A stretch of 25,277 bases of DNA. Origin: Candidatus Sumerlaeota bacterium. Its GTDB lineage: Bacteria > Sumerlaeota > Sumerlaeia > JADFCT01. The stretch is from contig JAPLSP010000478.1 of NCBI GenBank assembly GCA_026398575.1, positions 1 to 25,277 of the forward strand. The letters run 5' to 3'. The notes beneath the pieces were generated by a model that was not told the origin of the DNA, did not search any database, and was given only the letters and a program-made list of their open reading frames with translations. Shown in pieces: positions 2,887 through 24,870 of this stretch; position 1 is the stretch's first letter; each line of letters starts with the position of its first letter. The translations under genes and the position numbers were made by a program.

Positions 2887-3006
2887 GAGACAGGATAAAT
2901 TAGAGACAGGATAAATTTATCCTGACTCTAATTTATCCTGTCTCCAATCCATCCTGTCTCGAATCCATCCTGTCCATAATTTATCCTGTCCCTAATCCAT
3001 CCTGCC
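2887..3006. repeat. Phased 16-bp repeat array with orientation switch
   Basis: Seven full 16-bp units and a partial one follow each other with no spacer. Units at 2887 and 2903 read GAGACAGGATAAATTW. From 2919 the unit flips and continues as ATCCTGNCTCTAATTT-like copies at 2919, 2935, 2951, 2967, 2983 and a partial at 2999. The switch point forms the palindrome GGATAAATTTATCC. The ATCCTG core is constant and the last four bases alternate between ATTT and ATCC. The array fills the spacer between the VOC gene and the GH99-like gene. There are no unique spacers, so it is not a CRISPR array. Confidence 0.9.
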
Positions 3007-3016
3007 ATCACGCCGC

Positions 3017-7874: not shown

Positions 7875-10800
7875 TCACTCCAGCGTCGGTTTCGCAATTT
7901 CGCCGCGCAACTGCGCCTGGCCGCCTTCGCGCTCATAGACGCCGTAGAACATCGAGACGCAGTCGAGCCACAACGTAATGCGATGCATATCTTCAGCGGA
8001 GAGTTTGACGTCGTGATGGCCTTTCTTCAGCATCGCATAAAGCGCTGATGCCTGCGCGCCGAATTTACCGGGCGTCGTGCGATAGCCGTCGGCATAATTG
8101 ATGTAAGCGTACTTCGGAACAAGGCTGGCATAAGAGGCATACCAGTTGCGGACGAGCGGTTGCCGGCCCAGGTTCGGCGCCTTGCCCACATTCTTCGCGT
8201 GGCACTCGGCGCAGTTTTTATCCAGCACGGGCTGGACCAGGCGCGGATAACTGAACGGATACGATCCATCCACGTCCGGCTTCAGGCGCGAAGGCTCGCG
8301 CAACGTGGCCATGACCTGCTTCTTCATCGCCGCCGGGGCGCTCTGTTTGCCGCGCTCATGGCAGCCGACGCACGAAAGCGTCTCATCTTCGTGCAGATAG
8401 GTTCCCGAGCGCATGGATTGCACGGCCAGTTCGTTTTCATCCAGCGCTTGGAAAAAGATTTCCTTGTTCGCCGGCACGGCGAAATACGCGCTGCCATCTT
8501 CCTCGACAGGAACCGTGCCCAAGACTTGACGGACCGGCACGACGGAATCCATGGAGTTGGGCTGGCGCATGGCGGTTTCATGCGGCGGCCCGCCGGACGG
8601 AACGCTCATCGGCAGGACTTGAAGCACGCGCAGCGATTTGATCTTCGTGCCCTCCGGCCATGGCTTGAGGCTGTCATAAACATTGACCAGCGTGAGCACG
8701 CCCTCCGGCGACTTTCCGTCCGGCGTCTTGCCATCCGTTTTTGCCGCGATGCGCGCGGCCGGATTGGTCTCAGGGCCGCGTTTGTCCATATCCGGCATGA
8801 CGGCGGGCATGGGACGCGGGCGCGCCGGCATCGGGCTGAGGCAGGCGATCTCGGGATCGCGATAGATCAGTTCCTTGTTTCCGAAAACATCCACCAGATA
8901 GATGCCATAATTCCCGGGGAGATAGCCGCTTCCCTGCGTGCCCTTCTCCGCCTGCATCAACTCATCATAAACGCACAGAAAATAATTTTCACTCAGCGGC
9001 CACGGCGTTCCATAAACTTGCCGCCCTCCCTGGCTTTCCGGGAAGCCGACTTCCGGCGTGACACGCTTGACCGGCGCCATCGTGTCGTCGTCGAACACGC
9101 GCGGATCAATCATCACGAGCGAGCCATAGGCCTGCCCATGATGCGGCGCAGCGGTGGCCACGAATTTATGCGACCCGGGAATGGCGCGCACGTCCAGTTC
9201 CATATCCGGCCGCGTCGGGCGCGGCGCGAAATTGCCTTGCACCTGCCGCGCGTCGCGCCCATCGAGCGTCGTGATCCAGGGATGATGCGCCGTGCAGCCG
9301 TGGCGGTCCACGTAGTCCCAGCGCGTATATACAATGCGGCCGTCGTTCGTGACGCTCGGGTGCCACTCGTTGGTTTCGTGGAAACTGAGACACGTAATCC
9401 CGTTGCCGTCGGCGGCCATGTCGAACAGCGAATAGAGCGGGCACGCGCGGCCACAGCGCAGATAACCGCCGCGACGTTCGCTGATGAAGGCGATGCGCCC
9501 ATTGGGAAGCCAGCATGGATCGAAGTCGTTGAAGGTGCCGTCCGTCAGCTGCCGCAAGTCCGAGCCGTCCAGATTGACCTTGAAGACGTGATAGCAATGG
9601 CCTTCATCCCAATGGCCCTGGGTTGGGTCGGTATGATGCCGGTGATTGCGGTCGCCTTTTCCTTCCACATAAGCGAAAAGGATTGACTTGCCGTCGTAAG
9701 ACAATTCGGGCGACAGAAATGTTCCGCCTTCGTACTCCGGACCGTGCAGGTTGCCCATGCCGTCGAACGACAAAGCCGGCGGCTTATTCGGGCCGCCCGA
9801 TAGTTTTTGCCCTTTCAGCCGTCCGTTCTGAACCTCGGAATTGGCAAGCACGTCGCGCAATTGCGGATTCGGTCCGAAGGGATTCGATAGCACATAAAGC
9901 CCGCCGCCCGGAGTCGCGGCCATGCCGTAGTATTGATCGCACATGTGATTATAAAGGGCGCGATGGCGCTTGATGAAGAGAATCTTGTCGAAGTCCAGAA
10001 GCGGATTGGCGAAAGCAATCTGGCGGCGCAGGCGGCTGGCATCGGCAAAGAGCAAATAACGCGCCTCGGAGTTTTTGACGTCAATCGCGTGTTGCGCCTG
10101 CTGGAGATCGGCCAGTTCTTTCTCATAAGCGGCGAATGCGGTGGAGGATGCAGTGGAAGATGCGGCGCGCTTGAGATCGCTCAGCAGGGCGGCCGTACGG
10201 CGCAGCGTCACGTCCAACGGATCGCGGTCGCTTTCCATGATGAGCGCTTCCGGACGCAAGGTCTCGCTCGTCACTTTGGCGAAGTGGGCACGATTGCCCA
10301 AATCAGACAAGAGCCCTGCGTATTGCTGGTTCCACTCTTTTTCGATATTCGCGTTCACGGGAGCGGAAAGAAAATCGCGCATCCCCCGCAACATGAGCAG
10401 CGACGAGCGGCGAATCTTCTGAATATCCTCGCTCACTGTGGCAAGTTTCTTCAGCGCGTCATCCTCACCGCGCGCCGCGCTGGCGAAGACGTTCTGCCAG
10501 ACGCGATTCTTCGCGTCGAAATCCGCCAGCAATGAATCCGCGCCGCCGAAACGGTCGGGAAGCGCCTTGGCCAGAGCCTCGATGGACGCGCGCGCCGTCG
10601 CAAGATCAGTCTCTGACGAAGACTTCAACGCGCCGGCTGCGCGCTCGGCTTTGGTCTTGAGCGCATCCCATCGCTTGTCATCCGCCGGCGCCTGCGCGGT
10701 CTGAAGTTCCGCGAACTGCTTCTCGAAGGCGCGCCGTAGATCGCCGATCCAGATTCGCTCCAGAGGCGCGCGGCAATCGCGCCAGCGGCAGCCTTGCGCA

Positions 10801-11699
10801 TAGAGATTCAGCCATCGCGGATCGTCCGGGGAAGATTTGGCGCGGCTCAGATCGTCGAGTTGTTTTTTGATTGCGTCGCCTTGCGGCCCGAGATCAGCCA
10901 CAATGCGGTTGATGATCCCGCGCTCGATATTCGTGTTATTGCCTTGCTTCAACCATGCCTGGGCGTTCTTGCCGGCGTCTTTCTCGAAATCCTTCATCTG
11001 CTGCGGAAAGTCCCGCCCGACCATCTTCCAGACCGCCGACTCGAACTCGGGGCCGTCGAACACGACTTTGAACCGCGCCGCGCCGGTCGCACGATTGGCG
11101 TCTATCCCGACCCACGCCTCGAATTTTTCGTATTTGCCATCCAGCAGGTAGCAGACGTCGCTATCGGTGTGGACCCAGATTCCATGCTCGAATTTCTTGT
11201 CCTTGATCTGAAGCGGCTTGTTCTCCCAATTCTTGTCAACGAGCAATTCCCCCCACCCCACCTGCACAGACACTGGCTTGAGCGCCCCAAGCCACGTGAC
11301 CGAGCCATCCTTCGCGGTCAATTTCGCATCTCCCCAGATATTGCAGTTGCCCACCCCTTGCTCCAACTTGCCAATCAGTCGCATCCAGCGCTGGCCCGCC
11401 ACGCTGACAGAGACTTGCTGCCCCGGCCCATCGCCGCGAAGGGAATCAGTTTCGAAGGGCTTGACCATTGCGCCGACAGTCACGCCGGCGGCTGCTTGTT
11501 TCTCCGTTCCAGCTGCGCGCGCATGTCCGGCGCGAACAGCCAGCATCGTCTCGGCCCAGGTGTCTTTTTTTGCATAGAGCGAGGGATCAGTTTCCACCGC
11601 CACGCGATCCTTCGCGGACAACAAAGCCACCCCGCCAATAGCCACCCCGCCGATAGCCAAAAGCAACGCCAACATCTCAACCCAAGATTTTCGAACCAT
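7875..11699 (-). CDS. NPCBM-domain / hydrazine-synthase-alpha-like propeller protein with two c-type heme motifs
   Basis: A 1274-aa exported protein. A hydrophobic segment at about 9-28 is a signal peptide or anchor. Residues about 95-215 match the NPCBM/NEW2 carbohydrate-binding fold, with VTWLGALKP, EHGIWVHTDSD, and YLLDGKYEKFEAWVGID. A charged, probably helical linker follows (about 250-570). A propeller-like region opens near 585 (CDQYYGMAAT). It includes ELSYDGKSILFAY, DGSDLRQLTDG, FDPCWLPNGRIAFIS and RCGRACPLYSLFDM, the pattern annotated elsewhere as the HZS_alpha middle domain. The C-terminus holds CVGCHE near 1110 and CAECHA near 1162, both CxxCH heme-attachment motifs. The architecture is common in PVC bacteria and its role is unknown. 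True hydrazine synthase activity is not implied. An electron-transfer or sugar-oxidising function outside the cytoplasm is a reasonable guess. AGGAGG lies 11 nt before the ATG. Confidence 0.85.
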   Translation of the reverse strand: MVRKSWVEMLALLLAIGGVAIGGVALLSAKDRVAVETDPSLYAKKDTWAETMLAVRAGHARAAGTEKQAAAGVTVGAMVKPFETDSLRGDGPGQQVSVSVAGQRWMRLIGKLEQGVGNCNIWGDAKLTAKDGSVTWLGALKPVSVQVGWGELLVDKNWENKPLQIKDKKFEHGIWVHTDSDVCYLLDGKYEKFEAWVGIDANRATGAARFKVVFDGPEFESAVWKMVGRDFPQQMKDFEKDAGKNAQAWLKQGNNTNIERGIINRIVADLGPQGDAIKKQLDDLSRAKSSPDDPRWLNLYAQGCRWRDCRAPLERIWIGDLRRAFEKQFAELQTAQAPADDKRWDALKTKAERAAGALKSSSETDLATARASIEALAKALPDRFGGADSLLADFDAKNRVWQNVFASAARGEDDALKKLATVSEDIQKIRRSSLLMLRGMRDFLSAPVNANIEKEWNQQYAGLLSDLGNRAHFAKVTSETLRPEALIMESDRDPLDVTLRRTAALLSDLKRAASSTASSTAFAAYEKELADLQQAQHAIDVKNSEARYLLFADASRLRRQIAFANPLLDFDKILFIKRHRALYNHMCDQYYGMAATPGGGLYVLSNPFGPNPQLRDVLANSEVQNGRLKGQKLSGGPNKPPALSFDGMGNLHGPEYEGGTFLSPELSYDGKSILFAYVEGKGDRNHRHHTDPTQGHWDEGHCYHVFKVNLDGSDLRQLTDGTFNDFDPCWLPNGRIAFISERRGGYLRCGRACPLYSLFDMAADGNGITCLSFHETNEWHPSVTNDGRIVYTRWDYVDRHGCTAHHPWITTLDGRDARQVQGNFAPRPTRPDMELDVRAIPGSHKFVATAAPHHGQAYGSLVMIDPRVFDDDTMAPVKRVTPEVGFPESQGGRQVYGTPWPLSENYFLCVYDELMQAEKGTQGSGYLPGNYGIYLVDVFGNKELIYRDPEIACLSPMPARPRPMPAVMPDMDKRGPETNPAARIAAKTDGKTPDGKSPEGVLTLVNVYDSLKPWPEGTKIKSLRVLQVLPMSVPSGGPPHETAMRQPNSMDSVVPVRQVLGTVPVEEDGSAYFAVPANKEIFFQALDENELAVQSMRSGTYLHEDETLSCVGCHERGKQSAPAAMKKQVMATLREPSRLKPDVDGSYPFSYPRLVQPVLDKNCAECHAKNVGKAPNLGRQPLVRNWYASYASLVPKYAYINYADGYRTTPGKFGAQASALYAMLKKGHHDVKLSAEDMHRITLWLDCVSMFYGVYEREGGQAQLRGEIAKPTLE

Positions 11700-11861: not shown

Positions 11862-11942
11862 CAAGCGCCATTTGCCAGGATGCGTCCCGACTTATAGTTT
11901 GGCGCCAAACTTCAGGAATAATTCAGCGCGTCTATCAAAGCT

Positions 11943-12032
11943 GGCGCCGCATGGTAGGCCGCTCCGCTCCGTCGGGCGGCCTTGGCGCGCTATAGCCGTC
12001 CGACGGAGCGGATCGGCCTACCATTCGGCGCC
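11943..12032. repeat. Long palindrome A2 (GTAG-type), 38-bp arms
   Basis: The arms at 11943-11980 and 11995-12032 match at 35 of 38 positions around a 14-nt loop. The outer ends are GGCGCC, followed by ATGGTAGGCCG. The mismatch nearest the loop is G opposite T, which would be a G-U pair in a plus-strand transcript. The same wobble recurs in the copy at 19306. The GTAG at the stem base is the hallmark of REP elements moved by RAYT transposases; no RAYT gene is in this window. Confidence 0.9.
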
Positions 12033-12281: not shown

Positions 12282-14003
12282 ATGAAACGAAGAACTATGA
12301 TCCTGTCGCTGGCGTTCGCGCTGGCGTTCGCGCTGATGGCCCGGGCGGTCTGGAGCCAGCAGGAGGCCGCGAGGGAAGAGCGGGCGCCTGTGCCCGCGGA
12401 AAAAAGTTTCACGGGCAAGGCGTTCACCTACACGCGCGCCCTGCGCGAGCGGACGCGCGGATACGCGCTCTACGATGTTCGGTTCCCCTCGCCGGTGGTC
12501 TCGCCGCAGGAGGCCAACAACACGGTTCCTGCGGAGCTTTATTTCCCCACCAGCGCGACGCGCGCGCGCGCACACCCGGCCGTGGTCTGCCTTCACATCC
12601 TCCATGGCAATTTCGAACTCGAACGGCTGATCTGCTCGCGGCTGGCGCAGAGCGGCGTGGTCGCGCTCTTCTTCAAGCAGCCTTACTACGGCGAGCGCGG
12701 CGGCGAACTGGGCCGGCAGATTCTGGCGACCGACGCCAATCTCCTCACGAGCGCGCTGGATCAGGGGCTTGAGGACGCCCGGCGCGCGGTGGACGTTCTT
12801 CAGACGATGGAGGAGGTTCATCCCGGCCGCATCGGCTTCATGGGGATCAGCATGGGCGCCATCCAGTCGGCCAGCGTCTGCGGGCGCGAACCGCGCGTTT
12901 ACAAGGCCTATCTGGCGCTGGGCGGCGGCGACATCCGGAAAGTCATCCTGACGGCGCGCGAAATGACGGGCATACGGTTGTTCATCGAGGGGTTGCCTCC
13001 CGCGGAGCAGGAGCGCGTGTGGGCGTGCGTGGACCGGCTCGATCCGCTCATGGCCCGCGAGGCGCTGCGCAAGCTCGCGGGAAAAGACCGGTTGCGCATG
13101 GTGTGCGCGGAGCTGGACCAGGTGGTGCCGCCCGATTGCAGTCGCAAACTGGCCGAGGCCGCCGGCATTGCGGACCGGGTGACCTGGCTCAAAGGGATGG
13201 ATCACTATTCCGCGATGGCGGGATTCCCCCGGATCATGGACGACGTGCTGGCCTTTTTCAGCGCGGACGTCCCCGCGTCGTGGCGCCCGCCGCAGATGGA
13301 CGGCGAGAAGAGCGCCACCGAACTGGTCGGCGTCTTCCTGTCGGGGCTGGCGGCTTTCCTGGGCGGACAGCCGCAGGAAAACACAGCCCACATGACGGGC
13401 CTGGAGGGGGAGGCGACGATCGGCGGCAAGAAGGAAACCTTCTCGTTTGATTATATTTCCGGGGACCGGGGACGTTTCAAACTCTCCGGCGTCTTTCCGG
13501 CGATTGGCAAGGCCGGGCTGGGGCTGGGCGCATATCCATGGCTGATCGGCGGCGGCAAGGTGGTTTTCTGCGGGACGCAGGAGGCGGTCGCGGGCCGTCT
13601 GCCTTCGGAGATGATCCAGCCTCTGCGGATGATGCGCTGGCGCATGGCGCTGGGCGTGCTGGCGGTCGCGGCGCAGGCCCCCGAGACGCTGAAGAACTAC
13701 TACACGCTGACCGAGTCGCGCCGGGCCAACGGCGATCGCGCGGTGGAACTGCAGTTTGACATTAAAGGCGCGAAGGGAAAACTGGATTTGGTATTCGGCA
13801 AGGACGACATGCCCCGCGAGGCGTCCGTGAACATCAGTGGAATTGTTGGGCGCGTCCGCTTCACGCACTGGCGGCTGAATGCGGCGATTGACGACTCGGT
13901 GTTCGACGCGCCGGCAGGACTGCCGCGCAAAGAGGTCCGCCAGGAGGACGCGCTGCGCATGTTCGCGGCAGCGTTTGAATACGCGATGGAGGCCATGGAA
14001 TGA
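12282..14003 (+). CDS. Secreted alpha/beta hydrolase fused to a LolA-like domain
   Basis: A 573-aa protein from the ATG at 12282, with GGGGAAGG 3 nt upstream. The n-region MKRRT and a hydrophobic core to about residue 24 (RAVWSQ) form a signal peptide. Residues about 60-330 are an alpha/beta-hydrolase domain: oxyanion region VVCLHILHGN near 101-110, nucleophile elbow MGISMG with S190, acid candidate D279 in AELDQVVPP, and H308 in KGMDHYS. It most resembles acetyl-xylan-esterase/dienelactone-hydrolase-type enzymes. Residues about 345-573 form a second, beta-rich domain with DYISGDRGRFKLSG and a C-terminal VRFTHWRLNAAIDDSVFDAP. This resembles LolA-type lipoprotein-carrier folds. An esterase joined to a hydrophobic-ligand-binding fold may act on lipids or acylated glycans, which is inference. 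Its TGA overlaps the ATG of the C45 gene (ATGA). Confidence 0.82.
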   Translation: MKRRTMILSLAFALAFALMARAVWSQQEAAREERAPVPAEKSFTGKAFTYTRALRERTRGYALYDVRFPSPVVSPQEANNTVPAELYFPTSATRARAHPAVVCLHILHGNFELERLICSRLAQSGVVALFFKQPYYGERGGELGRQILATDANLLTSALDQGLEDARRAVDVLQTMEEVHPGRIGFMGISMGAIQSASVCGREPRVYKAYLALGGGDIRKVILTAREMTGIRLFIEGLPPAEQERVWACVDRLDPLMAREALRKLAGKDRLRMVCAELDQVVPPDCSRKLAEAAGIADRVTWLKGMDHYSAMAGFPRIMDDVLAFFSADVPASWRPPQMDGEKSATELVGVFLSGLAAFLGGQPQENTAHMTGLEGEATIGGKKETFSFDYISGDRGRFKLSGVFPAIGKAGLGLGAYPWLIGGGKVVFCGTQEAVAGRLPSEMIQPLRMMRWRMALGVLAVAAQAPETLKNYYTLTESRRANGDRAVELQFDIKGAKGKLDLVFGKDDMPREASVNISGIVGRVRFTHWRLNAAIDDSVFDAPAGLPRKEVRQEDALRMFAAAFEYAMEAME

Positions 14004-15676
14004 AAGCGATTACTCTGCGCATGATGGCCCTATGGGCGCTGAAGTTTGGACATTTCATTACGTTCCCCCGAAGGGGGGAAACAATCATAGCCGTGGGTGA
14101 AGCGAAGCGAACCCACGGCAGCAGCAGACGGAATTATCGGTCCCTGAAGGGGGCCAACGGCGTCTTAAAAGCAATCCTTCGCCTTAGCCAATTCGACACG
14201 CTCAAACGAAACGCAGCAGGCCGTTCGATCTGCGTTGGCCCCCTTCGGGGACCTGTCTTTGTGCGCCCCATCTCCGTGGGTTCGCTTCGCTTCACCCACG
14301 GCTATGATTGTTATCCCCCTTCGGGGGATTCACATGCCGGAACTCCAACGACAAGGTCTTCGGGGGATTCACATGCCGGAACTCCAACGACAAGGTCTTC
14401 GGGGGATTCACATGCCGAAACTCCAACGACGTGGGCTTCCAGCCCTCATTCTATAGGTGCAAACTCCAGGGCCCTATGGGCGCTGTTTGGCTTCCTGTGC
14501 GTTGCGGCGCAAACGGCGGCGCAAACGGCGGCGCAAACAGGAGCGCAAACGGGGGCGAAGGAAGTGGCGCAACTGACGGCGCAAACGGCGGCGCAGGAGA
14601 TGCAGATCGCGGCCAAAGACACTGGCGGCCACGGCATTCTGTACAAGGCCGGCGAGAAGCGCGTGCTCGTGGTGAGCGGAACGCCCGAGCAGATGGGCGC
14701 GGCCCACGGGCGGCTGCTGAAGGATCTGGTCCCCCATGTGGCGTCGCGCACGATGGCCCTGGTGGGGGCGGGTTATTCGATTCAGAAGGGCGATTGGTTC
14801 TACGACCGCGTCGAGGATATCCATCGCCGCGCCACGCCGCATACGCCGGAGCGGTTCATCCGCGAATGCAAGGCCATGGCGGCCGCCGCGGGGATCACCG
14901 AGCGTGACGCGCTGTGCGCTAACTTCTTCCCCGAGCTGTTCCATTGCAGCGGCGTGGCCGTGCGCGGCGCGGCCAGCGCAGACGGGCGCGTCTTGCATGC
15001 CCGGGTGCTGGACTACATGCGCGACGTCAACCTCCAGAAATACACCGTCGTGCAGGTCTTCGTCCCCGAGGGCGGCATTCCGTGGATGTCGCTGGGCTAC
15101 GCCGGATTCTTGGGAACGGTCACGGCGATGAACGCGCGCGGTCTGGCGATCGGCGAGATGGGCGGGCGCGGCGAGGGCGACTGGGACGGGATTCCGATGA
15201 CCTTCCTGATGCGCGAAGTGGCGGAAAAAGCCGCGACGGTCGAGCAGGCGCTGGAGATCATGCGCAAGGCGCCGCGCACGTGCGAATACTACTACGTGAT
15301 CAGCGACGCCAAGCGCGACATGGCGGGCGTGTACGCCACGCCGCTCAAATTCGAAGTGCTGAAACCGGGTCAGCAAGACCCACGCCTGCCCGAGGTTCCC
15401 GCCGATACGGTGATGTTCTCCAGCGGGGATCGCGCCAAAATGCTTTCACAGCGGTTGCGGGAGCATTACGGAAAGATCACGCCAGAGGTGATGATCGAAA
15501 TCATCAAGCGGCCGGTGGCGATGAAGTCCAACCTTCATAACGCCATCTTCATGCCCGAGACGCTCGATATGTGGTTTGCCGACGCGGGCAAAACCACGCC
15601 CGCCTGCGACGAGCCCTACACAAAGGTGAACCTCAAGAAAATCCTGGACCTCTATGCGGCGGCATTTGTGAAATAA
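14000..15676 (+). CDS. C45-family Ntn-hydrolase (acyl-transferase/peptidase) with an in-frame insertion in its signal peptide
   Basis: The 558-codon frame starts inside the stop of the hydrolase gene. The catalytic part (from about residue 215) matches the acyl-CoA:6-aminopenicillanate acyltransferase / C45 family: LVVSGTPEQMGAAHGRLLKD, then FPELFHCSGVAVRG with the predicted autoprocessing and nucleophile Cys316 (codon 14945-14947). SADGRVLHARVLDYM and NARGLAIGEMGG follow. Such enzymes cut themselves before the Cys and then hydrolyse or transfer acyl amides. The N-terminal part is odd. MKAITLRMMALWAL is followed by 148 repeat-derived codons, after which ALWALFGFLCVAAQ resumes. Removing them leaves an ordinary signal peptide on a 410-aa protein with Cys168. 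After it comes a run of AAQT repeats. Whether the extended product is exported or the gene is now dead cannot be read from sequence. Confidence 0.82.
   Translation: MKAITLRMMALWALKFGHFITFPRRGETIIAVGEAKRTHGSSRRNYRSLKGANGVLKAILRLSQFDTLKRNAAGRSICVGPLRGPVFVRPISVGSLRFTHGYDCYPPSGDSHAGTPTTRSSGDSHAGTPTTRSSGDSHAETPTTWASSPHSIGANSRALWALFGFLCVAAQTAAQTAAQTGAQTGAKEVAQLTAQTAAQEMQIAAKDTGGHGILYKAGEKRVLVVSGTPEQMGAAHGRLLKDLVPHVASRTMALVGAGYSIQKGDWFYDRVEDIHRRATPHTPERFIRECKAMAAAAGITERDALCANFFPELFHCSGVAVRGAASADGRVLHARVLDYMRDVNLQKYTVVQVFVPEGGIPWMSLGYAGFLGTVTAMNARGLAIGEMGGRGEGDWDGIPMTFLMREVAEKAATVEQALEIMRKAPRTCEYYYVISDAKRDMAGVYATPLKFEVLKPGQQDPRLPEVPADTVMFSSGDRAKMLSQRLREHYGKITPEVMIEIIKRPVAMKSNLHNAIFMPETLDMWFADAGKTTPACDEPYTKVNLKKILDLYAAAFVK
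14065..14327. repeat. Nested inverted repeats inside the insertion
   Basis: The outer arms at 14065-14118 and 14274-14327 match at 52 of 54 positions. Each arm is itself made of two small hairpins, CCCCCGAAGGGGG and CCGTGGGT...ACCCACGG. The inner arms at 14139-14159 and 14233-14253 match at 20 of 21 positions and again hold a CCCNGAAGGGGG hairpin. The whole would fold as a large cruciform or multi-stem RNA. Confidence 0.9.
14319..14435 (+). repeat. Three 39-bp tandem repeats
   Basis: Units at 14319, 14358 and 14397 begin CTTCGGGGGATTCACATGCC. The first two are identical, and the third differs at a few positions near its end. The 39 bp is 13 codons, so the host reading frame is kept, giving SSGDSHAGTPTTR-like peptide repeats. 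There is no spacer between units. Confidence 0.95.
14504..14599 (+). repeat. 12-bp coding repeats (AAQT) after the predicted signal-peptide cleavage region
   Basis: GCGGCGCAAACG occurs in direct succession at 14504, 14516 and 14528, then decays, and returns at 14576 and 14588. It encodes AAQT units directly after the hydrophobic core of the signal peptide. Slippage of this tract would change the length of a mature N-terminal linker without breaking frame. Confidence 0.85.
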
Positions 15677-19201: not shown

Positions 19202-19305
19202 AAAGCTCGCTCCCAAGTCTTGAAAGTGCGCACTGCGCTGTCAAGCCCATTGTTGGAACGGCGGGGGCAAGGGCAAGGATATATCCCGATATATGCTTTG
19301 GCGCC

Positions 19306-19383
19306 GCATGGTAGGCCGCTCCGCTCCGTCGGGCGGCCACAACACGCCAAGGCCGTCCGACTGAGCGGAGCGGCCTACCATGC
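19306..19383. repeat. Long palindrome A3 (GTAG-type), 31/33 bp stem
   Basis: The arms at 19306-19338 and 19351-19383 match at 31 of 33 positions around a 12-nt loop. The left arm, including the flank GCGCCGCATGGTAGG, is almost identical to A2 at 11943. The G opposite T near the loop is kept. The right flank lacks the closing GGCGCC seen in A2. It lies between the propeller gene stop (19397) and the start of the downstream repeat-protein gene. Confidence 0.9.
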
Positions 19384-21028: not shown

Positions 21029-21135
21029 GGCGCCAGCTTTTGGAGTAAGGTGGCTCGCCGCCGTCGTTGTGGCGTTTCGATGGCCCTGGCGCTAAAAAGA
21101 AGGCGGCGAGCCACCTTACTCCAAAAGCTGGCGCC
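21029..21135. repeat. Long perfect palindrome B1 (GGAG-type), 34-bp arms
   Basis: The arms at 21029-21062 and 21102-21135 are perfectly complementary over 34 bp, with a 39-nt loop. The outer end is GGCGCCAGCTTTTGGAG, followed by TAAGGTGGCTCGCCGCC. The element lies in the 321-bp spacer between the propeller gene and the broken GH95 gene. Apart from it and the candidate promoter I see nothing else in that spacer. An inverted copy lies at 23564. Confidence 0.95.
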
Positions 21136-23563: not shown

Positions 23564-23657
23564 AGCGCCAGCTTTTGGAGTAAGGTGGCTTGCCGCCTTC
23601 TTTTTTGCGCCAAGGCTATTGAAACGCCAAAAAGAAAGCGGCAAGCCACCTTACTTC
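23564..23657. repeat. Long palindrome B2, inverted copy of B1 with one end missing
   Basis: The stem GTAAGGTGGCTTGCCGC (from 23580) pairs with GCGGCAAGCCACCTTAC (ending 23654), extended by T-rich/A-rich strands with a few mismatches. Its whole sequence, including the loop GCGCCAAGGCTATTGAAACG, aligns with the reverse complement of B1. The C-G pair in the B1 stem is T-A here, a paired change. The right end lacks the CCAAAAGCTGGCGCC present in B1. It lies in the 281-bp spacer upstream of the GH95 gene, which holds nothing else I can support. Confidence 0.85.
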
Positions 23658-23718: not shown

Positions 23719-24690
23719 TTATCCGTTTCGTGTTGCTTCCATCCGCGCTCGTTGTTGGCGCGCTCTTGGCGCCGGCGCACATTGGGATCCGAAACTTTCT
23801 GGCGCTGCAATCTCCAAATCGAATTTGTCATGGACGCCGAGGGCGTTATGGACAATGTCTGAGTAAGGAACGCAGTCGCCCGCCTTCGTAATGTGCAATT
23901 GCTTGTCCACCTCGCCCGATTGGTCGCGCCGCGGCGTCAGGCCGAAATACACGCCCACGGCGCGGCTCTTGACGAATCGCTTCGGATCCTCCAACTTCAA
24001 CACATAGGCCAATGCCGTGATTTCGCCGACGCCGGCCACCGAACGCAGCCAGCGCGTTTCCGGGTATTTCTTATCGCACAGCGACACGATCTTCCGGTCC
24101 AAGCGCCGGATTTTCTCCGTCAGGATCTCGATGGTGTCGAGGATCGAATCCAGAGCCGGCTTCAAGGTCTCCGGCATATCCAGACGCGCTTGGCGCGCGA
24201 ACGATTCGGATGAACACTTGGCGAACCGTTCCCCAAACGACTTGACGATGCCGCGCGCATGGTTGATCAATTTCGTGCGGCTCTCAACCAATACATCGCG
24301 GCATTTGAGCATGGCCATGTCCGTCTGCGCTTCCACGCCGCGGTGCTGGATCGGGCTCAGCAGCTTCGGATCGGCCCGCCCCAGACGCGCCAGAGTTTCC
24401 GCGTCGCGATCATCATTCTTATTATCGCTGTAGCTGATCAACCGGGTCTTGCGCGGATTGCCCACGATCACCTCGTGCTTGCAGCCCGACACCGCGCGGC
24501 TGACCCACGGCGAATGCGTCCCGGCCTCGATCACGACGCGCGAGAGCCCCTGGACGCCGAAAAACTTTTCCATCTCCCTCCGCGTCATGCCTACTTTCCC
24601 TTTACGCTCCACATTCCCTTCGGCGCTTAAAATGCAAAAGCGCGAAAATTTGTCTCCCAAATCCACCCCGATCGTCTGTAAACTACTCAT
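23719..24690 (-). pseudogene. IS110-family transposase, 3' part decayed by frameshifts
   Basis: From the ATG at 24690 the first about 272 residues are a good IS110 transposase. The RuvC-like DEDD domain has GVDLGDKFS (D10), VVIEAGTHSPW (E55), and KNDDRDAETLARL (D93, D96). A helical middle follows. The Transposase_20 part has LRSVAGVGEITALAYVL and a Ser in RRDQSGEVDKQLHITKAGD (S258), at the place of the family's catalytic serine. After GD272 (about 23874) the family continuation RLRSLL is found only in a shifted frame. HNALGVHDKFDLE is back in the first frame, and GAKSANNERGW-like sequence is shifted again. The C-terminal end of the serine domain is therefore destroyed and the enzyme is probably inactive. 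IS110 enzymes normally recombine DNA guided by a bridge RNA encoded in the element. Confidence 0.88.
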
Positions 24691-24870
24691 GAAGGTCGTT
24701 CTCCAATTCTGGGCCGCGAGCCCGATTTGTTTGCTCCTTGGAAGATGCTCGCCCATCCCGTCGCTGGATGGAAAGCCTCATTCCGCAGAGAACGACCTTC
24801 TCATCTTATCTCCAAATGCTGGCGCTTCTTCAGGCCGCAGCGCATACGCCTAATAGGCAAACGCTCGTCC
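24691..24870 (-). other. IS110 upstream end; possible bridge-RNA region
   Basis: The roughly 180 bp before the transposase ATG hold a perfect 13-bp inverted repeat, GAAGGTCGTTCTC at 24691-24703 and GAGAACGACCTTC at 24788-24800, enclosing 84 nt. Within it, on the minus strand, CCATCC and GGATGG can form a small stem, and GGGC/GCCC another. In the IS110 group the structured bridge RNA is encoded just upstream of the transposase, so the location fits. No similarity to a known bridge RNA can be tested here, and the outer element boundary is not visible. Nothing else is recognised up to the PIG-L stop at 24914. Confidence 0.35.

Follow-up and report, generated by a model that had tools for sequence, protein, structure and literature searches.

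A repeat core of a Y1 transposase-associated hairpin family probably inserted recently into a hydrolase signal peptide

The window analyzed here is a 25,277-bp stretch of contig JAPLSP010000478.1, from a Candidatus Sumerlaeota bacterium, and its subject is a repeat-rich insert that interrupts the signal peptide of a C45/AAT-type hydrolase. The hydrolase is encoded by an open reading frame (ORF) of 558 amino acids (aa) on the + strand (14000–15676), whose start overlaps the stop of the upstream gene. PF03417 (AAT) matches ORF residues 349–448 (E = 5.8e-13), C45-family proteins align to residues 170–558, and relatives are up to 82% identical to the downstream part of the ORF, which fits a recent event. 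Two identical 16-bp direct repeats (GGCCCTATGGGCGCTG)—the left at 14026–14041 within host signal-peptide sequence (ALWAL), the right at 14470–14485, both on the + strand—enclose an insert of 428 bp (14042–14469, +), which together with one repeat copy makes 444 bp, or 148 codons. An earlier description made from the letters alone, which we call the sequence-only reading, had reported identical repeats 444 bp apart around an open insert; the exact coordinates and the frame were both confirmed, the copies lying in frame and the ORF being stop-free across the whole insert. No word longer than 15 was shared within any of 283 random pairs of 300-/350-bp pieces taken from the window, so the occurrence of a 16-mer at both junctions is not due to chance. 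Deleting both copies would shift the frame, and one copy is therefore presumably ancestral host sequence. The GC content of the insert is 0.563, that of the whole window 0.585.

The core of the insert (14064–14328, 265 bp) is a palindrome of six hairpins in the order H1-H2-H3-centre-H3'-H2'-H1'. Its outer arms (55 bp; 14064–14118 and 14274–14328) are 96% complementary and its inner arms (21 bp; 14139–14159 and 14233–14253) 95%, and the folding z-score against shuffles is −10.2 as DNA and −11.9 as RNA. On the + strand, H1 (CCCCCGAAGGGGG; in the outer arm also written CCCCGAAGGGG) occupies 14065–14077, an ATAG tag at 14087–14090 forms the 5' foot of H2 (CCGTGGGT...ACCCACGG; 14091–14118), which shows compensatory changes across the repeat family described below, and H3, of the CCCTGAAGGG type, is the left inner arm (14139–14159). 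Beyond a 73-bp centre (14160–14232, +), which would be the place of a transposase gene in the proposed autonomous form, lie H3' as the right inner arm (14233–14253, −) and a second, inverted module, H2'-H1' (14273–14327, −). The ends of the insert differ from those of the palindrome: the insert reaches 22 bp further on the left (14042–14063, +) and 141 bp further on the right, where most of the sequence is a tandem array of three 39-bp units (14319–14435 in one analysis, 14319–14430 in another, +), each unit opening with the 3' half of H1'. The second unit is identical to the first and the third 90% identical. The nested palindromes and 39-bp units of the sequence-only reading were borne out by measurement. 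The left flank carries a terminal inverted repeat, CTGAAGTTTGGAC, that starts at 14039, and the right end of the insert (14431–14469, +) carries GTGCAAACTCCAG; written as CTGAAGTTTGGAC / CTGGAGTTTGCAC, the imperfect 13-bp inverted repeat matches at 11 of 13 positions, a level reached by 0.00055 of random ends when small shifts are allowed. Since this terminal repeat uses the last CTG of the left 16-bp copy, the true duplication could be 13 bp plus three chance matches. No promoter or terminator pattern was found in 13850–14700, and a resemblance to Rfam MIR1858 (52.5 bits, gathering threshold 137) was rejected as a palindrome artefact.

The homologues examined lack the insert. The best 120 of 3057 homologues, compared by length, measure 371–432 aa, and by length none of them carries it; in the 104 of these 120 that remained after 16 without the conserved motif pattern were dropped, a median of 30 residues (maximum 73) precedes the motif, against 205 in the window, or 57 once the 148 codons are subtracted. 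The insert is likewise missing at all ten orthologous loci examined, out of 80 kept (L059, L004, L003, L006, L005, L002, L008, L001, L007, and L009), where 23–28 residues lead up to a conserved AQ. All but L009 share the AATGA start context of the window, in several of them conservation extends to the DNA of the upstream gene, and the closest belong to metagenome-assembled genomes of Kiritimatiellae and Verrucomicrobia. With ten of ten sites empty, the proposed insertion into an ordinary signal peptide stands, and relatives sharing the long N-terminus, which the sequence-only reading had named as counter-evidence, were sought without any being found. That the event was recent, one of the options in that reading, agrees with the identity of the 16-bp copies and of two of the three tandem units, and with the intact downstream ORF. 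We infer that the 428-bp insert entered the signal peptide once and recently.

To follow the hairpins in relatives, we built a covariance model, R1, of the H1-H2 module from seven sequences, namely the two modules of the window and those of L081, L082, L086, L091, and L095. The left and right modules of the window score 73.5 and 72.6 bits, both being among the training sequences. We searched 288 genomes from the class that includes G013, whose gene is the closest in DNA sequence, scoring at most 18 candidates per genome; at least 56 of the 288 contain a match at E ≤ 0.001, a set that does not include the training genomes G173 and G200, which were either not drawn or missed. Forty loci fetched from the better matches (in G012, G061, G158, G008, G303, G143, and G098) together with the window yielded 60 module matches. 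In their alignment, which was fitted to R1 on loci chosen by R1, 98.2% of cells pair and 64 cells show double changes, against 19 in shuffles. The four bases before H2 read TTAG in 32 of the 60, ATAG in 14, CTAG in four, ACAG in three, and CCAG in two, the other five being different or unread; an NTAG tag is thus present in 50 of 60 matches, while GTAG never occurs, and the tags depart from the canonical GT[AG]G of repetitive extragenic palindromic (REP) sequences. Copies in G012 and G008 run H1-H2-H3-centre-H3'-H2'-H1' over ~250 bp, with H1' and H3' differing in sequence from H1 and H3, and one-armed copies occur too (e.g., L245 and L249). The core of the insert shares its hairpin order with a repeat family dispersed in Kiritimatiellae-class genomes, and the family has the hallmark of REPINs—two inverted hairpin repeats forming a unit, in many copies—as seen in the arms of the window, the doublets of G012 and G008, and the 56 of 288 genomes.

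Matches to larger or exact portions of the insert were scarce. The whole insert found no match in plasmids and phages and none in 13 relatives, and of 345 class genomes nine gave short partial matches at E ≤ 0.01, several of which were to the hairpin module. An exact 29-bp hairpin pattern was found in neither viral nor genome contigs, and a 26-bp tandem-unit pattern in no viral contig; matches to the tandem array plus right end in 31 of 345 genomes at E ≤ 0.1 (best 0.004) were taken as chance.

Modules of the same family flank short IS200-like Y1 transposases that bear the signature of subclass 1.2. Among 30 loci with Y1 transposase genes, R1 matches (12 at E ≤ 0.1) fell in four, L285, L286, L287, and L301, the first three of which are the three best-scoring short transposases of the set; of the 27 others only L301 has a match, or one of 12 when only loci from R1-bearing genomes are counted. 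The three founding ORFs encode 150, 157, and 156 aa and match Pfam Y1_Tnp at E values of 7e-25 to 3e-20. They score 64.7, 59.4, and 51.5 bits against the NCBIfam IS200/IS605 model (cut-off 55, so that the third falls below), and two of them score 35.9 and 29.2 bits against the model for REP-associated tyrosine transposases (cut-off 80), which does not match the third. All three contain WQ and YxxxQxxHH, and their HUH motifs read DHVH, DHVH, and EHIH. L285 is laid out as H1-H2-H3, gene, H3'-H2'-H1', and modules also lie on either side of the gene in L286 and L287, but less regularly.

A profile of the three founding proteins, applied to 288 class genomes at E ≤ 1e-15, matched 40. R1-positive genomes make up 27 of the 40 with this subclass-1.2-like transposase and 29 of the 248 without it (Fisher 3e-13), or 24 of 37 and 28 of 247 when the training genomes G337, G303, G323, and G078 are excluded (8e-12), the R1 and transposase samples being taken as the same genomes and the genomes not being independent. 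Around the transposase genes themselves, a module at E ≤ 0.01 was present in 21 of 30 loci; in 18 of the 30 it stood in the expected orientation within 160 bp of the gene, in nine of them on both sides, and 24 of the 29 modules so placed lay 47–71 bp from the matched gene (range 29–127). L315–L317 are the three founding loci again and were left out of the comparison with controls, in which 18 of 27 loci had a module against one of 27 other Y1 loci (Fisher 1.4e-6) or one of 12 (0.0012). YxxxQxxHH was present at all 25 loci whose HUH motif the pattern read (five of 30 were unread). Beyond the class, we followed loci of Lentisphaerae, Planctomycetes, Verrucomicrobia, and similar groups into 23 further genomes, 13 of which have the transposase (G037, which the class sample also includes, is among the 23 and lacks it); R1 matched at E ≤ 0.01 in 14 of the 20 loci scored, of 30 fetched, and L346 shows by eye the order H1-H2-H3, gene, H3'-H2'-H1'. 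As with REPINs, then, the same repeat that is dispersed without a gene also flanks a Y1 transposase gene, in 21 of 30 loci within the class and 14 of 20 outside it. The associated transposases have the motifs and length of TnpAY1 subclass 1.2 (DH[IV]H, WQ, YxxxQxxHH, about 148 aa). In the portion of PMC6006769 available to us, this subclass is described as generally having neither terminal secondary structures nor REP sequences, and here the genes depart from that description, with hairpin modules beside 18 of 30.

Our preferred reading, to which we give a probability of about 0.72, is that the core is a transposase-less, REPIN-like or MITE-like (miniature inverted-repeat transposable element) derivative of a Y1 element that was recently inserted within a 428-bp stretch, through a staggered cut, with the frame kept by luck. 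The core would be a gene-less form of a subclass-1.2-like Y1 element, its 73-bp centre standing in place of the gene, and would have arrived inside a stretch that also carried flanking DNA and the 39-bp array. The staggered cut and fill-in would be due either to a DDE-type transposase that used the imperfect 13-bp inverted ends or to a repair process that captured filler DNA.

Several observations weigh against this reading. Y1 transposases in general do not track the repeats: PF01797 (Y1_Tnp) was found in 16 of 18 genomes, with or without R1 matches, and G158 and G143 bear repeats without a Y1 match. Twenty-nine R1-positive genomes, which are drafts, lack a subclass-1.2-like match; they include G012, G008, and G158, the genomes with the copies closest to that of the window in loop length. 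Nine of 30 transposase loci have no module at E ≤ 0.01. A tblastn comparison of the three transposases with the insert gave nothing significant (best E 1.3), and no remnant of a gene was recognized in the centre. G013 itself has neither an R1 match, among the at most 18 candidates scored, nor a transposase match. Finally, no second 428-bp unit was found in plasmids, phages, relatives, or class genomes, and the limits of the insert thus rest on one case.

The family and the insert resemble several known systems and differ from each in some respects. Like the REPtrons formed by REPINs and their transposases (RAYT, or TnpAREP), it comprises dispersed, often inverted, gene-less hairpin repeats that also flank a Y1 gene and have a four-base tag at the foot of a hairpin; here, however, each arm has three hairpins, the tag is NTAG, the unit spans ~265 bp, and the transposase bears the subclass 1.2 signature (YxxxQxxHH) rather than that of class 2. 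TIRtrons and their TIRYT proteins likewise place Y1 genes between long, partly self-complementary inverted repeats, some of which are dispersed, although the species named in the part of PMC3733652 at hand do not include Kiritimatiellae. Palindromes in frame within coding genes are familiar from the Rickettsia palindromic elements and from intragenic REPs: the same portion of PMC3733652 describes in-frame REPs in genes of the verrucomicrobium Opitutus terrae and of Rickettsia conorii, and, for Thauera and R. conorii, in-gene REP clusters that encode 43 to 82 aa, and in-frame MITEs are treated in the accessible text of a review (PMC10969869). The window differs from the Rickettsia elements in having a single, longer insert of 148 codons, in a signal peptide and with a 16-bp direct repeat, and recurrent in-frame use of the Rickettsia kind was not seen, eight of 11 family palindromes being closed to translation (see below) and no second in-frame copy of the insert being found.

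More broadly, and with somewhat less than even confidence, we propose that these loci represent an undescribed type of REPtron in the Planctomycetes–Verrucomicrobia–Chlamydiae group, in which a subclass-1.2 Y1 protein would mobilize high-copy, three-hairpin NTAG repeats whose gene-less doublets occasionally become stretches of exported proteins. A literature search that covered few subscription journals found no published account of this repeat in Kiritimatiellae and, in the parts of the sources that were accessible, no REP partner for subclass 1.2. If the association holds, an orphan transposase subclass would gain a likely DNA substrate, and an origin would be given for hairpin repeats that are common in Kiritimatiellae, other Verrucomicrobia, Lentisphaerae, and Planctomycetes. 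REPINs have been proposed to be doublets that possibly arose from IS200-like ends (PMC3116915, available text), and such an origin would become testable where, as here, forms with and without a gene have the same arms and coexist. The window, for its part, offers a clear case in which such a repeat has entered a secretion signal without breaking the frame, and the 16-bp repeat that flanks it was not expected.

That flanking repeat is not a trait of the family. The sequence-only reading had found 16 bp odd for such an element, and rightly so, for none of nine other family copies has a flanking repeat above chance, the longest shared words being 7–9 nt (one of the loci, L247, has 66 bp of upstream sequence only). 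Single-strand transposition of the IS200/IS605 kind is not known to make a target duplication, so the 16-bp repeat suggests a staggered cut followed by fill-in. For this step, we regard two explanations as about equally likely, each plausible but short of probable on its own. In the first, the whole 428–431 bp is a classical DDE-type MITE that made a 13–16 bp duplication and has the Y1-derived palindrome nested inside it. The 11/13 inverted ends, equalled by 0.00055 of random ends, speak for it, and direct repeats of 16–28 bp are reported for a long-duplication group of the IS1202 family (PMC10132070, in the text accessible to us). On the other hand, this combination of terminal inverted repeats and target duplication was seen once, and no further copy with these ends was found: GGTGCAAACTCCAG occurs in seven of 345 genomes in unrelated contexts, CTGRAGTTTGSAC occurs in 37 of 332 while its reversed control pattern likewise matched in many, and a multi-copy look-alike in G301, with CTGGAGTTTGGACATT behind varying hairpins, is not a flanked element. 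Nor do the ends start with TGT; they read CTG or AAG, and membership of IS1202, from which the insert also differs in having no transposase gene, was rejected.

In the second, the repair of a staggered break, or template switching at a palindrome in the target (GCCCTATGGGC), captured repeat-rich DNA and duplicated the 16 bp. This would account for the 22 and 141 bp by which the insert reaches beyond the palindrome and for the failure to find a second copy of those ends, and the 16-mer includes GCCC-TAT-GGGC; it would leave the 11/13 inverted ends to chance, however, and short palindromes are common. Improbable by comparison is that a subclass-1.2 TnpA moved the REPIN directly as a single strand, with the 16-bp repeat arising in a further step. 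The core does belong to a transposase-associated family, but IS200/IS605 chemistry is not known to yield a duplication, none of the nine other copies has one, and the ends of core and insert do not coincide.

The search for the terminal-repeat pattern also led to G301, G034, and G045, and was followed there. Seventeen loci of G301 (L198–L214) proved to be a different composite family, whose hairpins follow a fixed order and close with CTGGTGCTTGGACATT or a variant of it, and at three places in the same genome (L160–L162) CTGGAGTTTGGACATT directly follows varying hairpins.

Two explanations that would do away with the insertion altogether fare far worse. That the insert is an assembly artefact is very unlikely: the window may be a metagenome record, but the insert shows the coherent architecture of a family, and a repeat of 16 bp is below the usual word length of assemblies. 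Least credible of all is a conserved coding function of the long N-terminus: although the ORF is open through the insert, the extension is absent from the best 120 homologues and all ten orthologous loci, a search of 262 candidates gave no homologue of the insert peptide at E ≤ 10, and the DNA is a palindromic repeat.

The open frame of the insert is probably luck. Of 5000 dinucleotide shuffles, 4.9–5.6% left any given forward frame open and 15% left at least one of the three open; the need for a length that is a multiple of three lowers these chances by a further factor of 1/3. We translated in six frames the palindrome of the window and ten 265-bp pieces that begin at H1 (L246, L247, L248, L250, L252, L253, L254, L257, L262, and L270), and eight of these 11 have stops in every frame, one frame being open in each of the window's palindrome, L253, and L270; the family is thus not built for read-through, and with openness unremarkable in shuffles, the suggestion in the sequence-only reading that such elements are made frame-neutral is not supported. 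Neither the insert peptide nor the peptide of the 39-bp units found a homologue at E ≤ 10, and no other in-frame copy of the insert emerged from the insert-peptide search of 262 candidates. At L272 (89–784), one module is apparently joined, in the same frame, to the 3' portion of an ORF whose beginning resembles a signal peptide.

The consequences for the protein can be gauged from its predicted hydropathy. The best 13-residue value in the first 60 residues falls from 2.29 at the empty site to 1.28 with the insert, and the right-hand copy retains 2.28 from residue 158; in-frame GTG codons within the insert, at 14093, 14261, and 14276, lie far from this second hydrophobic stretch. Translation from 14000 would probably give a protein with a weak signal and, behind it, an internal hydrophobic stretch, so the export signal of the product is probably weakened or displaced, and the insertion would probably harm export. 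Directly behind the signal peptide lies a 12-bp coding tandem array of AAQT units (14504–14595, +), and the linkers that follow the signal peptide in the homologues P0003, P0022, P0041, P0042, and P0044 are likewise lengthened, in differing ways. Taken together, this array and these linkers suggest that the spot behind the signal peptide is tolerant of insertions.

Elsewhere in the window, an exact 40-bp direct repeat (11942–11981 and 19299–19338) recurs 7.4 kb apart, outside the insert, and a 16/32-bp tandem array at 2887–3008 consists of GAGACAGGATAAATT-type units followed by opposite-strand units. A 1274-aa protein (7875–11699) carries domains of the hydrazine-synthase-alpha-like, NPCBM, and PD40 types, a Cytochrome_CBB3 match below its cut-off, and CxxCH motifs seen by eye. 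An exact 26-bp direct repeat occurs at 21030–21055 and 23565–23590, the latter copy lying between a GH95/GH65N-type glycosidase gene and an IS110-family transposase (23719–24756; PF01548, PF02371).

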